64,000 nt of DNA. Source: Massilia sp. Root133. GTDB lineage: Bacteria > Pseudomonadota > Gammaproteobacteria > Burkholderiales > Burkholderiaceae_D. Below, in pieces: positions 22,231-33,491 of this stretch. The DNA is taken from the NCBI RefSeq assembly GCF_001426525.1, contig NZ_LMEW01000008.1, forward strand, positions 62,387 through 126,386, in the 5' to 3' direction. The stretch's first letter is position 1, and each line of letters starts with the position of its first letter. The notes under the pieces were generated by a model that worked only from the letters and a program-made list of their open reading frames with translations, did not search any database and was not told the DNA's origin. Made by a program: the position numbers and the translations under genes.

Positions 22231-24672
22231 TCAGAAGCGGTAGGTCAGCGACGCCTCCCACGCGCGGCCGAAGATCGGACGGGCGTTGATCGGGCCGGTG
22301 CTGGCGCCGACGAGGCGCGAGTTACCTTCCGTCAGGCCCAGCGAATTGTTCACGTTGGTGCCCGTGACGCGGAATTCCAGCTTGTCGGACAGCTCGGCCA
22401 GGATGCCCAGGTCCAGCGTGTTATACGACGGCAGGTACTGGGTGTTCTGCTGGTCCGCCCAGCGCGCGCCGATGTGCGAGTAGGTGCCGTAGAAGCGCAG
22501 CGCGTAGTCGCCGATCGGCAGGCGGTAGCTCGGCGAGAAGCGGTACTGGAACTTCGGCTGGCGCTGCACCTGGTTGCCGGCGATGGTCGGATTGTCCTTG
22601 TACGTCGAATCCTGCCAGTCGCCCGTCAGCTGCAGTTGCAGGCCCTTGAGCGGACGGAGGGCCAGTTCGAATTCCACGCCCTTGCCGTGCGAGCCGCTCA
22701 CCGAATACAGCACGCCCGACGTCGTGATCTGCTGGAACGAGATGCCCGTGAAGTCCGTGAAGAATGCGTTCACGTAGGCGCTGTACAGCGGCGTCGCCGT
22801 CTTGTAGCCGATCTCGTACTGCGTGACTTTCGGCGTCGGGACGCGATTGCGATCGTTCACGACATCCTGCGTGCCGGCGTTGCGCAGGTCGTCGAAGTAG
22901 ATGAACGTGTGGCCCTGGTTGGCGCGCACGAACACGCTGGAATCCTTGGTCAGCTTGTACAGGCCGCCCGCGGTGAACGAGTTCGCGGTGTCGTCGCGCG
23001 ACAGGCCCGTGAAGCTGCCGCTCGGCGTCGATGTGCCGTTGTTGTAGACCGTCAGCGCATTGTTGTCCGGATCGACCGAGGTCAGGTTCGAGATCGAGCC
23101 CGAGATGTGCTGCTTCTCGTGGCGCATGCCGGCGTCGACCTTGATGCGGTCGTTGATGCGCCATTCGTCGGCGATGAACACCGCCGTGTTGCGGCCGTCG
23201 TACGAGGCGATCGGCGCGTAGAACACGTTGCCGTCCGTGCCGTTCTTGGAGACGACGGCACCGTTGTTCAGCTTGACGTCGATGAGGCGCGCGTTCGGCG
23301 TCGCCGTCATCAGGTGGCTGTTGCCCAGATACCAGACGTCGTGCGACGAGTAGTTCGCGATGTAAGCGCCGGCGGTGATCGTGTTGTCGTTGCCGATGTC
23401 TTTCGAGACGCGGAACTCGTCCGTGAACGAGCGCAGCTTCTTCTCGACGGCCCACAGGCCCGCCTGCACCACCTGCTGGTTGCCCGCGACGGTGCCGCCG
23501 CCGTTCGTGTAGGTGATGGCGCCGCTGGTAGCCGGCGCGCCTGCTGCCGCGACCACGGCCGCATTGCCGTTGGCGGACGTGATGGCCTGGCTCACGTAGT
23601 CGGCCGCGCTCAGCGGGTTGTTACCCGTGAACATGGCGATCGTGTTCAGGTCGCCCTTGAAGTAGTTGAACTTGTTCGACACGTCCCAGCCGTTGAGCTT
23701 TTGCTGGAAGTCCGCGCCGACCAGGTTCGACGAGAGGCCGCGGCCGTCGCCCAGGTCGTACGTCAGGGTCTTGCCCGGACCCGCTTCCACCGTGAAGTTG
23801 CGCATCTCGTTGCTCATCAGGGTGCCGCGCAGCGGGTCGAAGCCGGGGAACGACGAGATCGTGTGGCCGTTGTTCGACGAGATCAGCGGCACGCCCGTGT
23901 AGAAGGCGTTCTTGTCCGACGTCGAGCGGGCGTAGACCGTCAGTTCGCCCTGGTCCAGCTTGCGGGTCAGCGAGGCGGAAAGCTGGCCGCCGTCGTCGGC
24001 CGGGAAGCCGGCGTCGCGCACGCCGTTCGTCGTGCGGTAGAAGCCGCCGATCATGCCGTACCAGCCGTCGGCGATCTTGCCGCTGTAGACGCCGTCGAAG
24101 CGGCGCAGGCTGCCGGTACCGGTCGTGAAGCGCAGGCTGCCTTCCGGCTCGTCGCCGCCTTTCTTCATGATAAAGTTCATCGTGGCGCCCGGCTGGCCGC
24201 TCGAGTAAATCGTGCTCGGACCGCCGCGCAGCACTTCCACGCGCTCGATCGTGTCATCCAGGCGGAACGCGGACGAGCCTTCGAAGAACGACAGCACGGG
24301 CACGGGGAAGATCGGGTTGCCGTTCATCTGCACGGAGACGAACGGCGAGTCGCTGCCCGACGGGAAGCCGCGCACTTCGATGTTGGCGCCGGACTGGCCG
24401 CCCGTCGCTTCGGCATACACGCCCGGCACGATCTTCAGCACGTCGGCCGTGCTGGACGGCGCGGCCTGCTTCAGTTGTTCTTCGGTCGCGGTCGTGATCG
24501 AGAAGCTCGTGTCGATCTTGCGCGTGCCGGAGGCCGATGCCGTACCGGTGACGACGACTTGCTGGATTTCTTTCTGGACATTGTCCTGAGCGACCGCCTG
24601 GGACTGGGCAACGAGGGCGAGGACAGCGAGGGCAATTGCTGACGGTTGCGGGAACTGCATGGTGTTTTTCAT
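22231..24672 (-). CDS. TonB-dependent outer-membrane receptor of the GH65 module
   Basis: 813 aa from the reverse ATG at 24672. Signal peptide (MKNTMQFPQPSAIALAVLAL, ending VAQSQAVAQ) is followed by a TonB-box-like QQVVVTG, a plug domain (TADVLKIVPGVYAE, GANIEVRGFP) and a 22-strand barrel ending in LTYRF. By family it imports a scarce ligand using TonB energy, either a siderophore or a glycan. The divergent LacI regulator and shared operator, with a phosphorylase next door, favour an alpha-linked oligosaccharide; the sequence itself looks siderophore-receptor-like, so the ligand is unproven. A terminator follows. Confidence 0.88.
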   Translation of the reverse strand: MKNTMQFPQPSAIALAVLALVAQSQAVAQDNVQKEIQQVVVTGTASASGTRKIDTSFSITTATEEQLKQAAPSSTADVLKIVPGVYAEATGGQSGANIEVRGFPSGSDSPFVSVQMNGNPIFPVPVLSFFEGSSAFRLDDTIERVEVLRGGPSTIYSSGQPGATMNFIMKKGGDEPEGSLRFTTGTGSLRRFDGVYSGKIADGWYGMIGGFYRTTNGVRDAGFPADDGGQLSASLTRKLDQGELTVYARSTSDKNAFYTGVPLISSNNGHTISSFPGFDPLRGTLMSNEMRNFTVEAGPGKTLTYDLGDGRGLSSNLVGADFQQKLNGWDVSNKFNYFKGDLNTIAMFTGNNPLSAADYVSQAITSANGNAAVVAAAGAPATSGAITYTNGGGTVAGNQQVVQAGLWAVEKKLRSFTDEFRVSKDIGNDNTITAGAYIANYSSHDVWYLGNSHLMTATPNARLIDVKLNNGAVVSKNGTDGNVFYAPIASYDGRNTAVFIADEWRINDRIKVDAGMRHEKQHISGSISNLTSVDPDNNALTVYNNGTSTPSGSFTGLSRDDTANSFTAGGLYKLTKDSSVFVRANQGHTFIYFDDLRNAGTQDVVNDRNRVPTPKVTQYEIGYKTATPLYSAYVNAFFTDFTGISFQQITTSGVLYSVSGSHGKGVEFELALRPLKGLQLQLTGDWQDSTYKDNPTIAGNQVQRQPKFQYRFSPSYRLPIGDYALRFYGTYSHIGARWADQQNTQYLPSYNTLDLGILAELSDKLEFRVTGTNVNNSLGLTEGNSRLVGASTGPINARPIFGRAWEASLTYRF

Positions 24673-24774: not shown

Positions 24775-24812
24775 GATTGACATCGATGTCAATCAAAATG
24801 CTATCGATGTCA
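24775..24812. promoter_or_regulatory. LacI-type operators between the TonB receptor and the regulator
   Basis: A perfect 20-bp palindrome GATTGACATCGATGTCAATC spans 24775-24794. A second, half-matching site GCTATCGATGTCA (24800-24812) reads TGACATCGATAGC on the other strand. The palindrome contains a TTGACA on each strand, so it may overlap the -35 elements of both divergent genes, an ideal site for repression. LacI proteins typically bind palindromes with a central CG, as here. Binding by the product of 24918-25925 is inference from position. Confidence 0.75.
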
Positions 24813-24917
24813 TTTTTTGTCGACACGACAAAAAAATCTGTCATAATCCATCCCGCTCAAGTAATCTGTTACCGCTACCCCAAGCTTATTTCTCACGACC
24901 TATTGCTCACGAACGAC

Positions 24918-25925
24918 ATGGCGCAAGCGAAAAAAAACCAGCCCGGCGATACCGCCGTGACGATGGAAGACCTGGCGAAGATCGCCGGGGTCTCCACGAT
25001 CACGGTGTCGCGGGCATTGCGCGACAGTCCGCTCGTGACGGAAAACACGCGGGAAAAGATCCGCAAGATCGCGCAGGAGCAGGGCTACCGCTTCAACATC
25101 AGCGCCCGCAACCTGCGCATGCGCCGGTCGTATTCCGTCGCCGTCGTCGTCGAGATGACGCCCGTGAAGGGCCGGCCGATGTCCGACCCGTATCCGCTCG
25201 AACTCCTGGGCGGTATCACCCAGGAACTCACCACCGCCGGCTACAGCGTCGTGCTCACGTCCAAGCAGCTGCTCGACACGGCCCCGGTACAGGGCGCCGA
25301 CGGCCTGATCCTGCTGGGCCAGGGCTCGCACGGCGAGGCGGTGAAGGCCTTGCAGCAGACCACGCTGCCGCTCGTCGTATGGGGCGCGCCGGAAGAGGGC
25401 GCCACGTACACGGTCGTCGGCTCCGACAACCGCAAGGGCGGCGCCAGCGTCGCCGAGCGCTTCCTGGAGCAGGGCCGGCGCAAGCTGATCTTCGTCGGCG
25501 ACGTCGACCACGCCGAGGTGCAGGAACGCTGCGCCGGCTTCATCGACGCGCTGTCCGGCCGCGCCACCGTGCACATCCTGCGTCCGAAGGCGTTCACGTT
25601 CGAAGCGGGCTTCGACTGCGTGACGTCGATCCTGAAAAAGAAGAACGGCCACAGCATCGACGGCCTGTTCGCCGCCAGCGACCTGCTGGCCATGGGCGCC
25701 ATCCGCGCGCTGACGGAAGCGGGCCTGCGCGTGCCCGACGATATTTCCGTGATCGGCTACGACGACACGCCGGGCGCCGCCAGCTTCGTGCCGCCGCTCA
25801 CGAGCGTCCACCAATACCTGCGCGACGGCGGCGTGCTGCTCGCGAAAAAAATGCTGGCCATGATCGAAGGCCAGCCGGCGCAATCGGAAATGCTGCCGAC
25901 CACGCTGATCGTACGCCACACCTGA
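24918..25925 (+). CDS. LacI family transcriptional regulator of the GH65 module
   Basis: 335 aa from ATG 24918. The helix-turn-helix and hinge read VTMEDLAKIAGVSTITVSRA (about residues 14-33), then LRDSPLVTENTREKI, followed by a periplasmic-binding-like sensor domain (GLFAASDLLAMGAIRAL, SVIGYDDT). The frame is open upstream to 24777 but that part carries the operators and is not conserved. It probably represses the divergent receptor and the downstream GH65-pgmB-MFS genes until a disaccharide or its breakdown product is present. Confidence 0.92.
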   Translation: MAQAKKNQPGDTAVTMEDLAKIAGVSTITVSRALRDSPLVTENTREKIRKIAQEQGYRFNISARNLRMRRSYSVAVVVEMTPVKGRPMSDPYPLELLGGITQELTTAGYSVVLTSKQLLDTAPVQGADGLILLGQGSHGEAVKALQQTTLPLVVWGAPEEGATYTVVGSDNRKGGASVAERFLEQGRRKLIFVGDVDHAEVQERCAGFIDALSGRATVHILRPKAFTFEAGFDCVTSILKKKNGHSIDGLFAASDLLAMGAIRALTEAGLRVPDDISVIGYDDTPGAASFVPPLTSVHQYLRDGGVLLAKKMLAMIEGQPAQSEMLPTTLIVRHT

Positions 25926-25986
25926 TCACGCTACATCACCCATAAGCTTGAAGAACGCGCTCCGCGCACGAGACGAGGAAACTGAA

Positions 25987-28344
25987 GTGAAAGATGACAT
26001 CGATAACACCAATGACATCGATAACAATAACGGACTGGCGGCCGAACCGTGGCGCATCCGCGAAGATACGCTGGAGTCTTCGCGCGCCTTCCTGCACGAG
26101 ACCCTGTTCACCCTGGGGAATGGCTGGATCGGCATGCGCGGCACGCCGGACGAGGGCACCGTCGGCGGTGCGGGCGACACCCTGGAAGGCACGTACCTGA
26201 ACGGCTTCCACGACACCGAAGCCATCCGCTATCCGGAAAACGCCTACGGCCTGGCCCGCATCAACGAATTCATGCTGAACGTGCCGAACGCCAAGCGCAT
26301 CGCGGCCGTCATCGATGGCGAACGCTTTGCGCTGGACGCCTGCAACGTGCTCGCGTGGGAACGCACGCTCGACTTCCGCACCGGCCTGCTCGAGCGCACG
26401 GTCGAATGGGAGACCGCCAGCGGCAAGCGCGTGCGCATCGCCAGCCGCCGTCTCGTGTCCCTCGGCCGCAAGCACGTCGCCGCGATCGAATACGCCGTCA
26501 CGCCGCTGAATTTCTCGGGCGCCGTGCGCATCGTCGCCGACATCGATGCGGACGTGACGAACCTGCAGGCCGGCGACGACCCGCGCGTCGGTTCCGCGCT
26601 GACGGGGGCGTCGCTGATCGAGACGCAGCGCAAGGTGGGCAGCGAGCCCGGCGCACACGACGTGCTGCTGCTGCAGCGCACGCGCCACAGCGGTTTTACG
26701 CTGGCCACGGCGACGGATGCCGTGCCGTCCAGCGCCGCCCGCGTCGAGCAGGTCGGACTGGGCCACGCGTTCGATGCCGATGTCGCGCAGGGCGCCACGT
26801 TCACCGTGCACAAATACGTCGCCTACGCGAGCTCGCGCGACATGGCGGCCGACGCCGTCGGCCCGCACGCGCACGCCGAGCTGGCGCAGGCCCGCGCCGC
26901 CGGCTTCGATGCGCTGGCGCGCGAACAGGCCGGGTACCTCGCGCGCTTCTGGGAAGACGCCGACGTGGCCATCGCCGGCGACGACGCCCTGCAGCAGGGC
27001 GTGCACTTCAACCAGTTCCACCTGCTGCAATCGGTCGGCCGCGACGGCAAGACGAATATCGCGGCCAAGGGCGTGACCGGCGAAGGCTACGAAGGCCACT
27101 ATTTCTGGGACACGGAAATCTATGTCTTCCCGTTCTTCCTGTACTCGCGTCCCGAGATCGCGCGCGCGCTGCTGCAGTACCGCTACAACGGCCTGCCGAA
27201 GGCACGCGAGCGCGCCCGCCAGATGGCGCATGCGAAAGGCGCGCTGTACCCGTGGCGCACGATCGCGGGCGAGGAATGCTCGGCCTACTTCCCGGCCGGG
27301 ACGGCGCAATACCACATCAACGCGGACGTCGCGTACTCGATCCGTTTATACCTGCTGGCGACCGGCGACTTCGACTTCATGGCGGAGCAGGGCGCCGAGA
27401 TCGTGCTGGAAACGGCGCGCATCTGGACGGGCATCGGCAGCTACGACCGCGCGCACCGCTTTTGCATCAACGCGGTGACGGGACCGGACGAATACACGGC
27501 CATCGTCAACAACAACTACTACACGAACGCAATGGCGCGCATGCACATGACGTTCGCGGCGGACGTCGCCGAGCGCCTGCGTGCCGAGCGTCCAGCCGAC
27601 TACGCGCGCGTGGCGCACGCCATCGGCCTCGAGGACGCCGAGATCCAGGCTTGGCGCGCGGCCAGCGCCGCGATGCGCCTGCCGTACGACGACGCGCTCG
27701 GCATCCACGAGCAGGACGACAGCTTCCTGTCCAAGAAACCGTGGGATTTCGCGAACACGCCGAAGGAGAATTACCCGTTGCTGCTGCACTACCACCCGCT
27801 GGTGATTTATCGCCACCAGGTGTGCAAGCAGGCCGACGTCGTGCTGGCGCTGCTGCTGCTGTCGAACCAGTTCTCGCTCGACGACAAGCGCCGCGACTTC
27901 GATTTCTATGAGGGCGTGACGACGCACGATTCCTCACTGTCCTCGTGCATCTTCAGCATCGTCGCGAGCGAGATCGGCTACCGCGACAAGGCGTACGGCT
28001 ACTTCATGGAGACGGCGCGCCTGGACCTCGACAACACGCACGCGAACACGCAGTACGGCGTACACACGGCCGCGATGGCCGGCACGTGGCTCGGCGTCGC
28101 CTACGGCTTCGCCGGCATGCGCCTCGACGACGCGGGCCTGCGCTTCGCGCCGACGCTTCCCGACCGGTGGACGGGCTACCGCTTCAAGGCGCAGGTGCGC
28201 GGTGCGCTGCTGGAAGTCGCGGTCGACGGCACCGGCACCGACTACCGCCTGCTGCGCGGCGCCGGTCTCACCTTCGCGCACGCCGGCACCACGATCGCCC
28301 TGGACGCGCAGCGCGCCCACATCCGCATGGAGAACCCACAATGA
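25987..28344 (+). CDS. Glycoside hydrolase family 65 disaccharide phosphorylase
   Basis: 785 aa, usual for the family. The N-terminal beta-sandwich (WRIREDTLESSRAFLHETLF, LGNGWIGMRG) is followed by an (alpha/alpha)6 barrel with the motif EGYEGHYFWDTEIYVFPF. The catalytic acid Glu502 lies in TGPDEYTAIVNNNYYTN. It splits an alpha-glucobiose (maltose, kojibiose, nigerose or trehalose type) with inorganic phosphate, giving beta-glucose 1-phosphate and glucose; linkage cannot be fixed by eye. No ATG fits: I choose GTG 25987, behind GAGGAAAC; a TTG at 25948 is an alternative. The first codons encode the repeat DDIDNTNDIDNNN, because two operator copies lie inside them. The stop overlaps the pgmB start. 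Confidence 0.92.
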   Translation: MKDDIDNTNDIDNNNGLAAEPWRIREDTLESSRAFLHETLFTLGNGWIGMRGTPDEGTVGGAGDTLEGTYLNGFHDTEAIRYPENAYGLARINEFMLNVPNAKRIAAVIDGERFALDACNVLAWERTLDFRTGLLERTVEWETASGKRVRIASRRLVSLGRKHVAAIEYAVTPLNFSGAVRIVADIDADVTNLQAGDDPRVGSALTGASLIETQRKVGSEPGAHDVLLLQRTRHSGFTLATATDAVPSSAARVEQVGLGHAFDADVAQGATFTVHKYVAYASSRDMAADAVGPHAHAELAQARAAGFDALAREQAGYLARFWEDADVAIAGDDALQQGVHFNQFHLLQSVGRDGKTNIAAKGVTGEGYEGHYFWDTEIYVFPFFLYSRPEIARALLQYRYNGLPKARERARQMAHAKGALYPWRTIAGEECSAYFPAGTAQYHINADVAYSIRLYLLATGDFDFMAEQGAEIVLETARIWTGIGSYDRAHRFCINAVTGPDEYTAIVNNNYYTNAMARMHMTFAADVAERLRAERPADYARVAHAIGLEDAEIQAWRAASAAMRLPYDDALGIHEQDDSFLSKKPWDFANTPKENYPLLLHYHPLVIYRHQVCKQADVVLALLLLSNQFSLDDKRRDFDFYEGVTTHDSSLSSCIFSIVASEIGYRDKAYGYFMETARLDLDNTHANTQYGVHTAAMAGTWLGVAYGFAGMRLDDAGLRFAPTLPDRWTGYRFKAQVRGALLEVAVDGTGTDYRLLRGAGLTFAHAGTTIALDAQRAHIRMENPQ
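25995..26025. promoter_or_regulatory. Two tandem operator copies inside the first codons of GH65
   Basis: TGACATCGATAAC occurs at 25995-26007 and again at 26013-26025, exactly 18 bp apart. Both share TGACATCGAT with the palindrome at 24775-24794. They lie just downstream of the presumed GTG start, so bound regulator could block elongation or initiation of the GH65-pgmB-MFS operon. Confidence 0.65.
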
Positions 28345-28985
28345 CTTCACGATTCAAAGCCGTCATCTTCGACCTCGACGGCGTCATCACCGACACGGCG
28401 CACTACCACTACCTGGCGTGGAAGCGCCTCGCGGACAGCGTCGATGCGCCCTTCGACGAAGCGTTCAACGAACAACTGAAGGGCGTCGACCGCATGGGTT
28501 CCCTGGACCTGATCCTCGCGCGCGCACCGCGCACGTACACGCCCGAGGAAAAGCGCGCGCTGGCCGATGCGAAGAACACGCATTACCAGGAACTGATCGC
28601 GACGATGACGCCGGACGATTTGCTGCCGGGCGCCCTGCGCGCGCTGGAAGAGGTGCGCGCGGCCGGACTCCAGATCGGCCTCGCGTCGGTCAGCCGCAAC
28701 GCGTTCACGGTGCTGGACCGCCTGGGCATACGCGACCGCTTCGACGACGTCGTCGACGCCGCGACCATCGTCAACGGCAAGCCCGATCCCGAGATTTTCC
28801 TCACCGCGGCCGCGCACCTGGGCGTCGATCCCGGGGATTGCCTGGGCGTGGAAGATGCCGCGGCGGGCGTCGCGTCGATCAAGGATGCGGGCATGTTCGC
28901 CGTCGGTGTCGGCAGTCCCGCGGTGCTGCATCGCGCCGACCGTGTGATACCGTCGATGGAAGCGTTCCGGCTGCAGGACTACTAA
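28341..28985 (+). CDS. pgmB: Beta-phosphoglucomutase
   Basis: 214 aa HAD-superfamily mutase. The nucleophile and acid/base aspartates lie in IFDLDGVITD (Asp11, Asp13). The cap has the substrate-specificity loop LKGVDRMGSL, and the C-terminal HAD motif is GVEDAAAGV. It converts beta-glucose 1-phosphate, the GH65 product, to glucose 6-phosphate for glycolysis. The start overlaps the GH65 stop (ATGA), the standard pairing that strongly supports GH65 being an inverting phosphorylase. Confidence 0.95.
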   Translation: MTSRFKAVIFDLDGVITDTAHYHYLAWKRLADSVDAPFDEAFNEQLKGVDRMGSLDLILARAPRTYTPEEKRALADAKNTHYQELIATMTPDDLLPGALRALEEVRAAGLQIGLASVSRNAFTVLDRLGIRDRFDDVVDAATIVNGKPDPEIFLTAAAHLGVDPGDCLGVEDAAAGVASIKDAGMFAVGVGSPAVLHRADRVIPSMEAFRLQDY

Positions 28986-29012: not shown

Positions 29013-30278
29013 ATGAACCAACGACGCATCCTGCTCGCCCTGTTCATGATTTATTTCGTGTTCGCCATCCTGCTCAACAGCGTGGGGACGGTGATCCTGC
29101 AGGTCATTCACACCTACGGCGTCGACAAGGGCGCGGCGAGCGTGCTGGAAGGGTTCAAGGACCTGCCGATCGCGATCGTGTCGTTCTTCGTCGCGTCGAC
29201 CCTGCCGCGCTTCGGCTACAAGAAGGCGATGCTGGTGGCGCTGGCGATCGTCGCCGCCGCCACGCTCGCGATGCCGCTGATCCCGGCCTTCGCGACGGCG
29301 AAACTGCTGTTCCTGTGCGTGGGCGTCGCGTTCGCGCTGGTGAAGGTGTCCGTGTACTCGACCATCGGCCTCGTCGCGCGCGACCGCAAGCACCATGCGG
29401 GCATCACGAACATGCTGGAGGGCTTCTTCATGGTCGGCGTACTGTCGGCGTACTGGATCTTCGGCTTCTTCATCGATGCCGAGCATCCCGCGTCGACGAG
29501 CTGGCTGAACGTCTACTGGCTGTTGTCCGTCCTGTGCGCGGCCACGTTTGCGCTCGTGCTGGCGACGACCTTCGACGAAGTCGGTGCCGCGCCGCCGGAC
29601 AGCCGCGGGCCGGCGGCCGACTTCCTGCAGATGCTGCGCCTGTTCGTGCGGCCGCTCGTGTACGTGTTCGTGCTGACGGCGTTCCTGTCCGTCCTCGTCG
29701 AGCAGGCGATCGGCTCCTGGCTCCCCACGTTCAACAACGAGATCCTGATGCTGCCCGCCACGATGAGCGTGCAGGTGACGAGCATCTTCGCGGGCTGCCT
29801 CGCGGTGGGACGCCTGCTGGCCGGCGTCGTGATGCGCCGCCTGAACTGGTATCCCGTGCTGACCGCGTGCATGCTGGCGATGGGCGCGACGGTTCTTCTT
29901 ACGCTGCCGCTCACGCACGGCGTCAATCACGATCCGAACGTGACGTGGTCGACGGCACCTGTCGCCGCTTTCCTGTTCCCGCTCATCGGCCTGTTCATGG
30001 CGCCGATCTACCCGGGCATCAATTCCGTGATGCTGAGTTCCCTGCCGCGCCACCAGCACGCACCGATGACGGGCCTGCTCGTGATCTTCTCGGCCCTCGG
30101 CGGCACCACGGGGTCGCTGATCACGGGGTATGTGTTCGGGCACGTGAACGGGCACTTCGCGTTCTACCTGACGCTCGTGCCGATCGTGCTGATGGTGGTG
30201 AGCCTGCATGCGTTCAAGCGGCAGGTGGAAAAGACCGCCGGCGCGGCCTGGACGGCCCGGCCGCACGAGTTGATTTGA
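29013..30278 (+). CDS. MFS sugar permease of the GH65 module
   Basis: 421 aa with about twelve helices. It begins MNQRRILLALFMIYFVFAIL and has conserved charged loops (LPRFGYKKAML, ARDRKHHAGITNMLEG). It resembles FucP/GlcP-like sugar permeases. It lies 27 bp after pgmB with a CTGGAGACAAC ribosome site, so GH65, pgmB and this gene form one operon. It likely brings the disaccharide delivered by the TonB receptor across the inner membrane. Confidence 0.88.
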   Translation: MNQRRILLALFMIYFVFAILLNSVGTVILQVIHTYGVDKGAASVLEGFKDLPIAIVSFFVASTLPRFGYKKAMLVALAIVAAATLAMPLIPAFATAKLLFLCVGVAFALVKVSVYSTIGLVARDRKHHAGITNMLEGFFMVGVLSAYWIFGFFIDAEHPASTSWLNVYWLLSVLCAATFALVLATTFDEVGAAPPDSRGPAADFLQMLRLFVRPLVYVFVLTAFLSVLVEQAIGSWLPTFNNEILMLPATMSVQVTSIFAGCLAVGRLLAGVVMRRLNWYPVLTACMLAMGATVLLTLPLTHGVNHDPNVTWSTAPVAAFLFPLIGLFMAPIYPGINSVMLSSLPRHQHAPMTGLLVIFSALGGTTGSLITGYVFGHVNGHFAFYLTLVPIVLMVVSLHAFKRQVEKTAGAAWTARPHELI

Positions 30279-30632
30279 CTTGCTTCACGGATCTGCAAAA
30301 ACATCTTTGTTGCTGATCCGCTACGTTCTGACCTATCCCGCCCTGATGGCGGCATTCCCTGTGCCGCCTCGTCACCGCTGCCCCATGTGCGGCGGATCGT
30401 CTCCCTTTTTCCGCTCATCCCACCGCGTTTTCCCTATGGGAAACCGACTTTTGCGCCATTTGATGGCGCGCAAAATCGACTTTCAATTTGTTGTCACAAA
30501 GTTTGGTTTGATATCAAAACCGATATGGGAAACCCAGAAAAAATCATTGGATCGATCATTGCCGGGTCTCTAACATTCAAAACATGCCAGTTGAGAAGTC
30601 AATATTTCTATAACTAGAAACACAGGAGACGT
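30279..30632. other. Intergenic region before the arabinose-locus TonB receptor
   Basis: 354 bp, no gene. It contains hairpins GGCGGCA/TGCCGCC (30348-30368) and GCGCCA/TGGCGC (about 30453-30469), a palindrome TTTCCC-TAT-GGGAAA (30429-30443), the repeat TATGGGAAACC (30435-30445 and 30524-30534), and the palindrome TTTGATATCAAA (30507-30518). The regulated promoter (30511-30576) is listed separately. A shared leader element CATGCCAGTTGAGAAG begins at the predicted start of transcription (30583-30598). Confidence 0.7.
30511..30576 (+). promoter_or_regulatory. LysR-type regulated promoter of the TonB receptor (site A)
   Basis: Operator ATATC-N6-GATAT at 30511-30526, A-rich element AAAAAATCATTGGA at 30538-30551 with TTGGAT as -35 (30547-30552), and TAACAT (30571-30576) as -10 after an 18-bp spacer. 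GATAT starts 25 bp before TTGGAT, exactly as in the promoters at 36652, 41284 and 53150. The operator centre lies near -65 relative to the predicted start, the classical LysR binding position. Confidence 0.78.
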
Positions 30633-33491
30633 ATGAAATCGCAATTATCTGCACGTCCTTTGGCCCTGAAGGTGTCCGTGACTGCGTTGATGGGCGCCGG
30701 CCTGCTCACCAGCGCCTCGGTATGGGCGCAAGCGGCCCCCGAAAAGACAGAGCCGGTCGAGACCGTGGTGGTCACCGGCGTCAAGGCATCGCTGATCAAG
30801 AGCCTGGCGATCAAGCGCACCAACGACCAGGTCGTGGAATCGGTCGTTGCCGACGACATCGGCAAGCTGCCAGATAACAATGTCGTCGAAGCGCTGCAGC
30901 GCGTGACGGGCATCCAGGTCACCGACCGCGCCGGCGGCGAAGTCGGCACCCTGTCCATCCGCGGCATGCCCGACGTGCAGACCACCTGGAACGGCCGCAC
31001 CATTTTTACCGCCTCCGGCACGCAGGTCGCGCTGCAGGACATTCCGTCGACCCTGGTGCGCCAGATCGACGTCTACAAGACGCGCGATGCCAGCCAGCTG
31101 GAAACCGGTATCGCAGGCCAGATTGACGTCAAGTCGCTGCGGCCGTTCGATTTCAAGGGTTCGAAGGTGTCGCTGTCGGCGCGTGAAACCTATCTCGATC
31201 CCGCGAAGAAGGGGAACCCGCAGCTCAGCGGCATGTTGAGCAACCGCTGGCAAACCGGCTTCGGCGAATTCGGCGCCCTGGTCAATCTGTCGGATACCAA
31301 GACGAAATACCGCAATGAAAGCGTGGCGCCGGGTGCGATGGTGCCGTTCGTCAGCCCCAATGCCGCCGAAGACCCCGCCGGTTATACGCCCTTGCAGCGC
31401 ATCACCGATACCAGTATCTGGACGCCTGGTACGCGTCCCGGCTTGCCGAGCGCGGCGGGTTCGACGCTGGATTTCAACGGCAAGGCGTATCCGTACTACC
31501 TGTCGCGTGACGCCATTTTCCAGAACGACCTTCAGGGCGAGCGCGAGCGTCCTTCCGCCAACATCGCCCTGCAGTGGAAACCGAACAGCGATTCGATCTA
31601 CACCTTCGAATCGATGTACAACGGTTATCGTAACAAGACCTTCAACAAGCTGTTGTTCAGCTTCGTCGACTGGTGGGGCGATCTCGGCGCCAACCCCGCG
31701 GGGTCGATCACGACGTTCCCGGGAACGAACATCATCCAGAGCCGTACGGTCAACAACGTCTATGGCTTCAACAGCGGCGACTACACCACGTCGGCAACCG
31801 ATTCCTACGTGTATGCCCTGAACGGCAAATGGGACCTTGGCGACCGCCTGAAGCTGGAAGGTGACGTGTCGTACCAGACGAGTACCTATCACTCGGAATT
31901 CACCGCCACCCGCATCGATCGCGTTGCGCCGTCCATCAACGTCAAGTTTAATGACGGCAACAACAACACGGCGTTCCATTTCAACAACGATGCCGACCTG
32001 ACCGACCCGAGCAAGTGGAATGTCGCGCAGTTCTACGATAACGCCAACCGCAACAAGGGCAGCGCCGCGACGGCCAGCCTGGCGGGCGTCTTCGATGCCG
32101 ACTGGGGTGCGCTGCAGACGCTCCAGTTCGGCGCGCGCTTCGACGACCGCAAGGCGTCGGAGGCCAACCGGGCGCAATCGGCCTTCCTGGGCCGCAGCCT
32201 CGCCTCCCTGGGGCCGGAGTATGCCTCCGTCAACTCGAACTTCGGCACGGCGATCTCGGACGTTCCGCGCTCATGGGTGGAGGCCAATGCCTACTACATC
32301 CGTGACCATATCGATGACTGGCGCAAGCTTTATAACTCGGTCGATGCGAACTTCCTGACGTCGGACAAACTGAGCCTGCAGAAGACGTTCGACGTCGATG
32401 AAAAGACGACCAACCTGTTCCTGATGGGGAATACCCAGAACGACCTGTTCGGCCATCGCCTGCGCGGCAATTTCGGCGTGCGCTACGTCAAGGTCAAGAC
32501 CGACATGAACTTCTACAAGGTGGATGCGACCACCAAGGCGGTCACGGCGTCCAGCGCCAGCAAGTCGACCAACAAGTTCCTGCCGAGCATGACCCTGATT
32601 TACGACCCATCCAAGGACGTCGTGCTGCGCTTCAACTATGGTGAAACCCTGCGCCGCCCGAGCTTCGGTGATCTGAATCCTGTCTATCAACTCGGTGATG
32701 ACGTCTCGCGGGTCGGTTATGGCTCGGGCAGCGGCGGCAATCCCGACCTGAAACCCACGCACTCCAAGAACCTCGACCTGACGGCTGAGTGGTACTTCCA
32801 GAAGGACAGTGCACTCTACGGTACGCTGTTCAAGCGCAAGATCGACGGCCTGATCGTGAATACGCGTCGCAAGGTTCACGTCGATCCGGCGGACGACCCG
32901 TTCCGCAACTCGACCGGAGGCGGCGACCATACGAACGGCTATGACTATGTCATCAGCTCGCCGGCGAACGCATCCGACGGCACCATGAAGGGCGCCGAGC
33001 TCGGCTTGATCTACTTCCCGAAGTGGCTGCCGAGCGCGCTGGACGGCTTCGGCATCCAGGCCAGCTATACGCGCCTCACCTCGTCGCAGAACGTGCCCGA
33101 GGTTAATGATGCCGGTGTCATCGTCTCGCAGCTCGAGACACCGTTCTTCGGCGTGTCCAACAAGTCCTACAACGCCACGCTGGCGTACGAAAAGGGCCCG
33201 ATCAGCGCGCGCTTGTCCCAGGTCTGGCGCTCGGGCTTCCTGGCCTCCAACGAAGCCGCGTTGTTTGCCAATCCGATCGGTATCTGGCGTCATCCGGAGA
33301 AGAGCGTGGACATGCAGATCTCCTACAAGATCAACGACAACACGACGCTCGACATCAGTGGTGTCAACCTGACCAACGAAGTGCAGCAGGCCTATTACCA
33401 CTTCGGCACCGCGGGTAACGCGCAGCTGACCAATTTCGGTACGCTCCAGATTGGACGTTCGGTCGCGGTTGGCCTGCGCTGGAAGTTGTAA
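30633..33491 (+). CDS. TonB-dependent receptor for arabinan oligosaccharides (TIGR01782-like)
   Basis: 952 aa. An N-terminal signal (LKVSVTALMGAGLLTSASVW) is followed by the TonB box-like ETVVVTGVKASL and the plug phrase VVESVVADDIGKLPDNNVVE, hallmark of the TonB-Xanth-Caul class used for plant glycans. The barrel ends GLRWKL. ACAGGAGACG precedes the ATG. It carries the same regulated promoter as the arabinose catabolic and transport operons, so the ligand is most likely arabino-oligosaccharide. A terminator follows at 33526. Confidence 0.9.
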   Translation: MKSQLSARPLALKVSVTALMGAGLLTSASVWAQAAPEKTEPVETVVVTGVKASLIKSLAIKRTNDQVVESVVADDIGKLPDNNVVEALQRVTGIQVTDRAGGEVGTLSIRGMPDVQTTWNGRTIFTASGTQVALQDIPSTLVRQIDVYKTRDASQLETGIAGQIDVKSLRPFDFKGSKVSLSARETYLDPAKKGNPQLSGMLSNRWQTGFGEFGALVNLSDTKTKYRNESVAPGAMVPFVSPNAAEDPAGYTPLQRITDTSIWTPGTRPGLPSAAGSTLDFNGKAYPYYLSRDAIFQNDLQGERERPSANIALQWKPNSDSIYTFESMYNGYRNKTFNKLLFSFVDWWGDLGANPAGSITTFPGTNIIQSRTVNNVYGFNSGDYTTSATDSYVYALNGKWDLGDRLKLEGDVSYQTSTYHSEFTATRIDRVAPSINVKFNDGNNNTAFHFNNDADLTDPSKWNVAQFYDNANRNKGSAATASLAGVFDADWGALQTLQFGARFDDRKASEANRAQSAFLGRSLASLGPEYASVNSNFGTAISDVPRSWVEANAYYIRDHIDDWRKLYNSVDANFLTSDKLSLQKTFDVDEKTTNLFLMGNTQNDLFGHRLRGNFGVRYVKVKTDMNFYKVDATTKAVTASSASKSTNKFLPSMTLIYDPSKDVVLRFNYGETLRRPSFGDLNPVYQLGDDVSRVGYGSGSGGNPDLKPTHSKNLDLTAEWYFQKDSALYGTLFKRKIDGLIVNTRRKVHVDPADDPFRNSTGGGDHTNGYDYVISSPANASDGTMKGAELGLIYFPKWLPSALDGFGIQASYTRLTSSQNVPEVNDAGVIVSQLETPFFGVSNKSYNATLAYEKGPISARLSQVWRSGFLASNEAALFANPIGIWRHPEKSVDMQISYKINDNTTLDISGVNLTNEVQQAYYHFGTAGNAQLTNFGTLQIGRSVAVGLRWKL

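Follow-up and report, generated by a model that had tools for sequence, protein, structure and literature searches.

Introduction

Regulator sites that are themselves translated are rare in the LacI family: in a survey of LacI-family regulons, coding regions account for less than 1% of the sites (PMC4052901). The described cases include O2 of Escherichia coli lacZ and the PurR site at purB (PMC4052901; PMC10310618), PurR being counted among the roadblock proteins (PMC10310618). In Bacillus, the LacI-family protein CcpA acts at cre sites downstream of promoters (gnt, xyl/ara, sigL, acsA); some functional sites fall within coding sequences, and an elongation roadblock is reported as demonstrated for several operons (PMC3463425). 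This article describes a locus in a 64,000-nucleotide (nt) stretch of Massilia sp. Root133 (contig NZ_LMEW01000008.1, positions 62,387 to 126,386, forward strand; hereafter the window), in which putative operators of a local LacI-family repressor, here called LacI-A, occupy the first codons of the gene for a GH65 phosphorylase. An earlier note on this DNA had called such an arrangement unusual, which is right in degree, given the survey figure and the known lacZ and purB cases.

The first of these sites, O3, resembles the lacZ and purB examples in lying within the coding region of the presumed target gene. Its position is different: the lac site is described as lying deep within lacZ (PMC4052901), whereas the codon site stands 5-11 nt from the start codon throughout the clade that carries it. 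Unlike the lacZ and purB sites, it also occupies the place that another regulator's presumed operator holds in relatives. The purB site, too, is located well within its gene. CcpA regulates globally, with 418 predicted boxes (PMC3463425), whereas LacI-A has four exact-pattern sites at one locus. The nearest likeness in site architecture is offered by ScrR of the Burkholderiales, whose sites, like those described here, are even palindromes with a central CG, paired at 21-22 base pairs (bp) in a manner suggesting cooperative dimers; pairs at that spacing have been described as characteristic of cooperative binding in the family (PMC4052901). ScrR-type local regulons nevertheless differ from this locus in gene content, and this locus has extra sites inside the enzyme gene. 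The same survey describes non-orthologous LacI-family regulators with different motifs governing the same catabolic pathways in different lineages (PMC4052901). Unlike those lineage-separated regulators, the two repressors considered below share one operon in relatives, and one genome, that of Massilia arenosa (L105), holds the new site together with the old regulator. A search of the open-licence literature, mostly at listing depth, returned nothing on this Massilia regulon and no first-codon operator with regulator replacement. Taken as a whole, the sequence comparison makes a regulatory swap the probable reading: a roadblock-type operator placed in the translated start of GH65, with LacI-A as the one local repressor.

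Operator Sites at the lacI-A Locus

The window holds four sites, given here as 14-mers and none of them assigned a strand:

24778..24791, no strand, putative operator O1, TGACATCGATGTCA, forming the core of the palindrome at 24775-24794 (20 bp)
24799..24812, no strand, putative operator O2, TGCTATCGATGTCA, 21 bp from O1 as 14-mers (starts 24778 and 24799), gap 7 bp
25995..26008, no strand, putative operator O3, TGACATCGATAACA, within the predicted translated codons of GH65
26013..26026, no strand, putative operator O4, TGACATCGATAACA, second copy in an in-frame tandem duplication of 18 bp

The sequence at 24775-24794, GATTGACATCGATGTCAATC, is indeed the perfect 20-bp palindrome with TTGACA on either strand that the earlier note had placed between divergent genes, here the TonB receptor gene (minus strand) and lacI-A (plus strand). 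The second copy that the note located 6 bp further on is present, at a slightly different distance, the 14-mers being separated by 7 bp. The two GH65 copies are spaced by exactly 18 bp, as claimed, and lie in frame after the GTG at 25987. They do fall in the coding start, occupying codons 3-14 rather than the first twelve: the second copy reaches codon 13 when counted as a 13-mer and codon 14 as a 14-mer. The peptide encoded over O3 and O4 is V-K-D-D-I-D-N-T-N-D-I-D-N-N-N.

All four sites fit TGNYATCGATRNCA, a central-CG palindrome with halves TGACAT, TGTTAT or close variants. This degenerate 14-mer was composed post hoc, from the sites and their relatives; in the whole genome (7.15 Mb) it matches exactly at four places, all at the locus, and its reversed control at none. 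With up to one mismatch allowed, the pattern TGACATCGAT has 10 places in the window where 3.72 are expected; 0 of 100 shuffles attain 10.

For comparison, one genome per species was scanned; 82 relatives were found and the best 80 orthologous lacI loci were kept, labelled by L-numbers. At least two copies of the A site (TGNYAT-CG-ATRNCA) lie upstream of lacI in all 80 of these loci; the spacing of the first two is 21 bp in 78 loci, and 23 and 24 bp in the other two. In the Janthinobacterium rows L118 and L119 the A-site spacing is 24 and 23 bp, respectively, and a further site lies nearer lacI. Three tandem A sites spaced by 20-21 bp precede lacI at L073:5854-5908, L101:5870-5925, and L107:5841-5896. 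The recognition-helix region of the LacI-A orthologs is near-invariant, reading S-(T/K/S/P)-ITVSRAL. The A site is an even palindrome with a central CG, constant within an orthologous group, as described for LacI-family operators (PMC4052901). That the repeats form a single operator family of the adjacent LacI, as the earlier note proposed, is strongly supported by this conservation and by the exact-match uniqueness in the genome, with LacI-A as the presumed binding protein.

The Codon Site and the Start of GH65

Two further elements define the beginning of the enzyme gene:

25975..25979, plus strand, Shine-Dalgarno-like GAGGA, 7 nt before the GTG, read from the sequence
25987..25989, plus strand, predicted GH65 start codon GTG, from frame, start and codon comparisons in relatives

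The comparison of the clade carrying the codon site (the A clade) covers 22 rows. The frame of the site relative to the GH65 domain is identical in 22/22. The site begins 8 nt after the first base of a GTG in 18 rows, 5 nt after an ATG in three (one of which, L059, also has a GTG at 8 nt), and 11 nt after an ATG in one. Around it the sequence is more variable, with a gap from lacI to the start of 36 to 74 nt (61 bp in the window) and six different distances between the site and a conserved Trp. A Shine-Dalgarno-like GAGGA precedes the start in 17 rows and AGGA in three, with neither in the remaining two. No ATG, GTG, or TTG is found between the codon site and the conserved Trp in 18 of the 22, so that there the site must be translated if a complete GH65 domain is to be made. 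From the frame, start and codon comparisons, the site appears to lie inside the translated sequence of its target gene, as the earlier note had it, and O3 and O4 are very probably translated operators of LacI-A.

The second copy at 18 bp is present in 3/22 rows and requires three changes on the lacI tree; it is accordingly taken as a repeat that comes and goes, and a single codon site seems sufficient. In L054 one duplicated copy ends in ACCA, like the single site of L103, and this ending may be a variant rather than decay.

Codon choice speaks to what is being conserved. Usage was taken from the 17 of 22 rows whose genes were long enough. At the first operator codon GAC stands in 14 rows, GTT in six, and GAT in two. 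Wherever Val is encoded at this first position it is by GTT (6/6), a codon that makes up only 0.9% of 805 Val codons; at the third position Asp is GAT in 22/22, against only 15.4% of 838 Asp codons. Thus the amino acid at the first operator codon varies while the half-site remains one that is also found upstream of lacI. Related rows are non-independent, but GTT appears on the tree both in M. arenosa and within the L062-L066 group, to which a GAC row (L061) also belongs. The codons appear to track the operator and not the peptide, which points to selection on the DNA. Perfect palindromes are found at just 2/22 codon sites, the other 20 combining different half-sites; full RNA pairing is therefore not the conserved feature.

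These comparisons bear on three other explanations. The earlier note had allowed that the GH65 start might be misplaced, with translation beginning past the repeats, and in four of the 22 rows (L061, L065, L041, L068) an in-frame ATG or TTG after the codon site, or at its end, would permit a later start; set against this, the 18 rows lacking any start codon before the Trp, the constant frame and the GAGGA or AGGA in 20/22 leave such misannotation very improbable. The repeat might instead be conserved for its peptide (NDIDN) or for an RNA hairpin, as its location in the ribosome start region and its AT-richness would allow. Yet the operator consensus is retained through rare codons as the peptide varies (DID, VID; N to V), the mixed half-sites of the 20 imperfect copies cannot pair fully as RNA, and the same motif is also intergenic, upstream of lacI, so this explanation has very little in its favour. 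Chance resemblance can draw on the fact that half-site-like words are fairly common in the genome (43 loose matches); the window shuffles, the restriction of exact matches to four places and the clade-wide conservation reduce it to a negligible prospect.

A Second Motif and a Second Repressor

On the lacI tree (86 rows, midpoint-rooted) the codon site occurs in 23 rows, all on one side of a single branch with support 100/99; since the tree is midpoint-rooted, a gain of the site, as opposed to a loss, is what we infer. Among the 80 named loci, the codon site is present in 18, an A site stands before the GH65 start in one (L103), a different motif, CAAACCGGTTTG (the B site, at most one mismatch), follows lacI in 52, and nine have neither near lacI. 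The 52 B-site loci are distributed across Duganella, Rugamonas, Pseudoduganella, the M. rubra group, and outlying rows, L122 and L125 among them. L069 (M. rubra) and L120 each have two B sites at a spacing of 32 bp; in L122 a single B site is accompanied by a weaker one, likewise at 32 bp. L120 is labelled "none" on the tree despite its two sites, which lie further from lacI, and the A-clade result is unaffected.

In L084, L120, and L122, whose gene content was inspected, a second LacI-family gene, lacI-B, directly follows the gene for a transporter of the MFS family. At E <= 1e-60, lacI-B is present in 28 of 51 genomes. Cross-tabulated with the B site (at most one mismatch), 22 of these 51 have both, none the site only, six the gene only, and 23 neither (Fisher p 2.5e-9, genomes being counted as independent despite kinship). 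In 6/6 genomes inspected, lacI-B shares a contig with the B site, at a distance of about 4-5 kb. Among the codon-site genomes, lacI-B is found in 1/21, namely M. arenosa. An operator switch between clades under the same LacI was considered, since the region upstream of GH65 carries CAAACCGGTTTG in one group and TGACATCGATAACA in the other; it was rejected, as 80/80 loci retain A sites before lacI and a second lacI fits the other motif.

Unlike in the relatives inspected, no lacI-B match follows the MFS gene in the window. A tblastn search of the window for a lacI-B remnant gave six hits, the best being lacI-A itself (24% identity) and none falling in 30279-30632. The genome of the window has no exact B site; with one mismatch it has 6 places and the control 5. 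In the whole genomes of six relatives the exact B site has one place in five and two in that of L069. With a looser pattern, two genomes show 9 and 4 places (control 10 and 5) and two further genomes 15 and 14 (control 5 and 4). Comparison with related genomes, named in the earlier note as a check, thus gave a codon site in one clade, at a place where relatives hold another motif and carry in addition a gene for a second repressor, and we regard it as likely, from these distributions, that the B system was replaced by the codon site.

Some genomes combine these elements differently. M. arenosa has the codon site and lacI-B after its MFS gene, and its 13-kb locus contains no B site even with two mismatches allowed. 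Its lacI-A leader, just past the predicted -10 (upstream of L105 position 5995), carries CAAACCGGTAAC, which agrees with the B motif at 9/12 positions and may be either a weak B site at lacI-A or a chance match. At L103:5337-5350 an A site, TGACATCGATACCA, precedes the GTG of GH65, while this genome keeps lacI-B without a B site; this is apparently a separate gain of LacI-A control over GH65. The L118 genome has two lacI-B-like genes, and the L118 and L119 loci lack a B site within one mismatch. Neither lacI-B nor a B site is found in L073, L101, and L117, of which L073 and L101 also lack the codon site.

Genes of the Locus

The genes surrounding the sites, and the promoter predicted for lacI-A, are as follows:

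22231..24672, minus strand, TonB-dependent receptor (open reading frame and domain matches), divergent presumed target of O1/O2
24820..24847, plus strand, predicted lacI promoter, TCGACA, 16-nt spacer, CATAAT preceded by TG (prediction only)
24918..25925, plus strand, lacI-A, LacI-family repressor of 335 residues (domain and alignment searches)
25987..28344, plus strand, GH65 phosphorylase of maltose/kojibiose phosphorylase type, presumed target gene (domain and structure-sequence matches)
28341..28985, plus strand, beta-phosphoglucomutase, same operon (TIGR01990 above cut-off; start inferred from open reading frames, ATGA overlap with GH65)
29013..30278, plus strand, MFS transporter (domain matches)
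30633-33491, second TonB receptor (TIGR01782 above cut-off), after the MFS gene, where relatives carry lacI-B

LacI-A has an N-terminal helix-turn-helix (PF00356, 51.4 bits, cut-off 27) and a periplasmic-binding-protein-like effector domain (PF13377, 94 bits, cut-off 26.5), and all 20 of its listed matches to named NCBIfam groups (GntR, RbsR, PurR, MalI, TreR and others) fall below cut-off. It aligns with E. coli LacI (360 residues) over positions 4-328 of the latter and up to its own last residue, terminating with the effector-binding domain and having no tetramerisation tail. GH65 contains the N, central and C domains (PF03636, PF03632, PF03633) and matches solved phosphorylases over nearly its full length, two specificities about equally (1h54, maltose phosphorylase, 5.6e-111; 3wiq, kojibiose phosphorylase, 1.8e-109); against PRK13807 it scores 563.7 of 838 bits, under the cut-off. 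Because its alignment to 1h54 starts at residue 19, the operator-coded peptide is placed before the fold. In L069, L084, L120, L122, and L124 a large minus-strand open reading frame occupies the position of the TonB receptor. No exact A site precedes the second TonB receptor in the genome-wide TGNYATCGATRNCA scan. Together the TonB receptor, LacI-A, GH65, beta-phosphoglucomutase, and MFS transporter look like a unit for disaccharide uptake and phosphorolysis. The locus is patchy within the genus, a lacI-A ortholog of at least 76% identity occurring in 27/62 genomes; in two further ones the matches reach 37-41% identity (E <= 1e-60).

Mode of Action and Evolutionary Order

The conservation of the sites suggests that LacI-A dimers would bind the O1/O2 pair, two helical turns apart, and so repress the TonB receptor gene as well as the operon of lacI, GH65, beta-phosphoglucomutase, and MFS genes. 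LacI-A would also bind O3 and O4 inside GH65 codons 3-14, DNA that is apparently operator and coding sequence at once, the encoded peptide being presumably a tolerated by-product ahead of the phosphorylase-aligned part. In the 22 A-clade rows no sigma-70-like match before GH65 rises above shuffles (p 0.20-1.00), and the region upstream of lacI reaches 9-10 of 12 in raw promoter score in 20/22. Because no promoter is recognisable before GH65 in this clade, O3 would most likely serve as a downstream gate, at which bound LacI-A would halt polymerase coming from the lacI promoter just past lacI; the repressor gene would then stay readable and the enzyme genes shut until sugar frees LacI-A. A roadblock of read-through as the actual mode of action stands at about an even chance. 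Single LacI roadblocks are reported to inhibit weak to moderate promoters up to 25-fold and to be easily added to promoter control (PMC4132739).

Another mode of action is possible, if less so: O3 could be a LacI-A operator that prevents initiation from a GH65 promoter which has escaped detection, in either the 3' end of lacI or the 61-bp gap. A relative does seem to possess a GH65 promoter, the L069 gap containing a consensus-like sequence (TTGACA, 18 nt, TAGACT; p 0.01) overlapped by the B site, and the promoter test misses most other relatives too, so that its negative says little. What argues against an initiation block is that no A-clade row has a match above shuffles and that the lacI-GH65 gap, of 36-74 nt, is poorly conserved between subclades. 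An auxiliary role for O3, looping with O1/O2 across lacI, is unlikely. DNA loops are used by gal and lac, and the distance from O2 to the first codon site is 1143-1196 bp in 22/22 A-clade rows; however, LacI-A has no tetramerisation tail and the helical phase of the O2-O3 distance is scattered round the turn, although several close relatives share 0.29 or 0.48, and looping is disfavoured on these two grounds.

As to evolutionary order, O3 would have arisen in the Massilia/Telluria clade and displaced a LacI-B acting at CAAACCGGTTTG upstream of the GH65 start, after which the B site and then lacI-B would have been lost, as their distribution suggests. More tentatively, and with rather less than an even chance, the first GH65 codons may have been recruited as an operator for the upstream regulator by a change in cis that came first and made the second, co-operonic repressor and its operator dispensable; the codon gate exactly between regulator and enzyme genes would let one promoter serve both an autoregulated repressor and a tightly closed set of enzyme genes, and M. 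arenosa would be a preserved intermediate.

Several observations weigh against the swap to a roadblock-type operator. Loose look-alikes of the sites are common, the 16-mer TTGACATCGATGTCAA with up to three mismatches matching 43 genome places against 7 for its control, and the 18-bp spacing of O3 and O4 is out of helical phase. The promoter negative is weak because, outside the A clade, the same test misses the expected B-controlled promoter in seven of eight rows (p < 0.05 only in L069, 0.01; the others 0.11-0.98). A single LacI roadblock is described as leaky, at most 25-fold even at the best operator (PMC4132739). Binding of the B site by LacI-B is argued from co-occurrence, and lacI-B is present without a B site near lacI-A in L103, L105, L118, L121, L124, and L131. 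Of these, L103, L105, and L118, in which GH65 adjoins lacI-A, are true exceptions. In L121 and L124, GH65 lies outside the fetched stretch, and in L131 (Undibacterium pigrum) it lies about 5 kb from lacI-A, with an exact B site (L131:11777-11788) about 190 nt before the GH65 motif. The B site thus goes with GH65 and not with lacI-A; in L131 it lies outside the tree labels and leaves the A-clade result unaffected. Finally, the order in which the site came first and the regulator was lost later depends on one genome, M. arenosa, on a midpoint-rooted tree, and its position as sister to the other 22 rows has support of 81/64.

Significance

Intragenic operators of the LacI family were already known; what is unusual here is the first-codon position, the clade-wide conservation and the link to a second regulator's loss, one genome being apparently intermediate. 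If the swap from LacI-B to a codon-borne LacI-A site is correct, regulator replacement, and the question of whether operator or regulator changes first, would be open to direct test in cultured species, close relatives retaining the apparent earlier state of regulation. The locus is also a warning that odd N-terminal peptides can be regulatory DNA.

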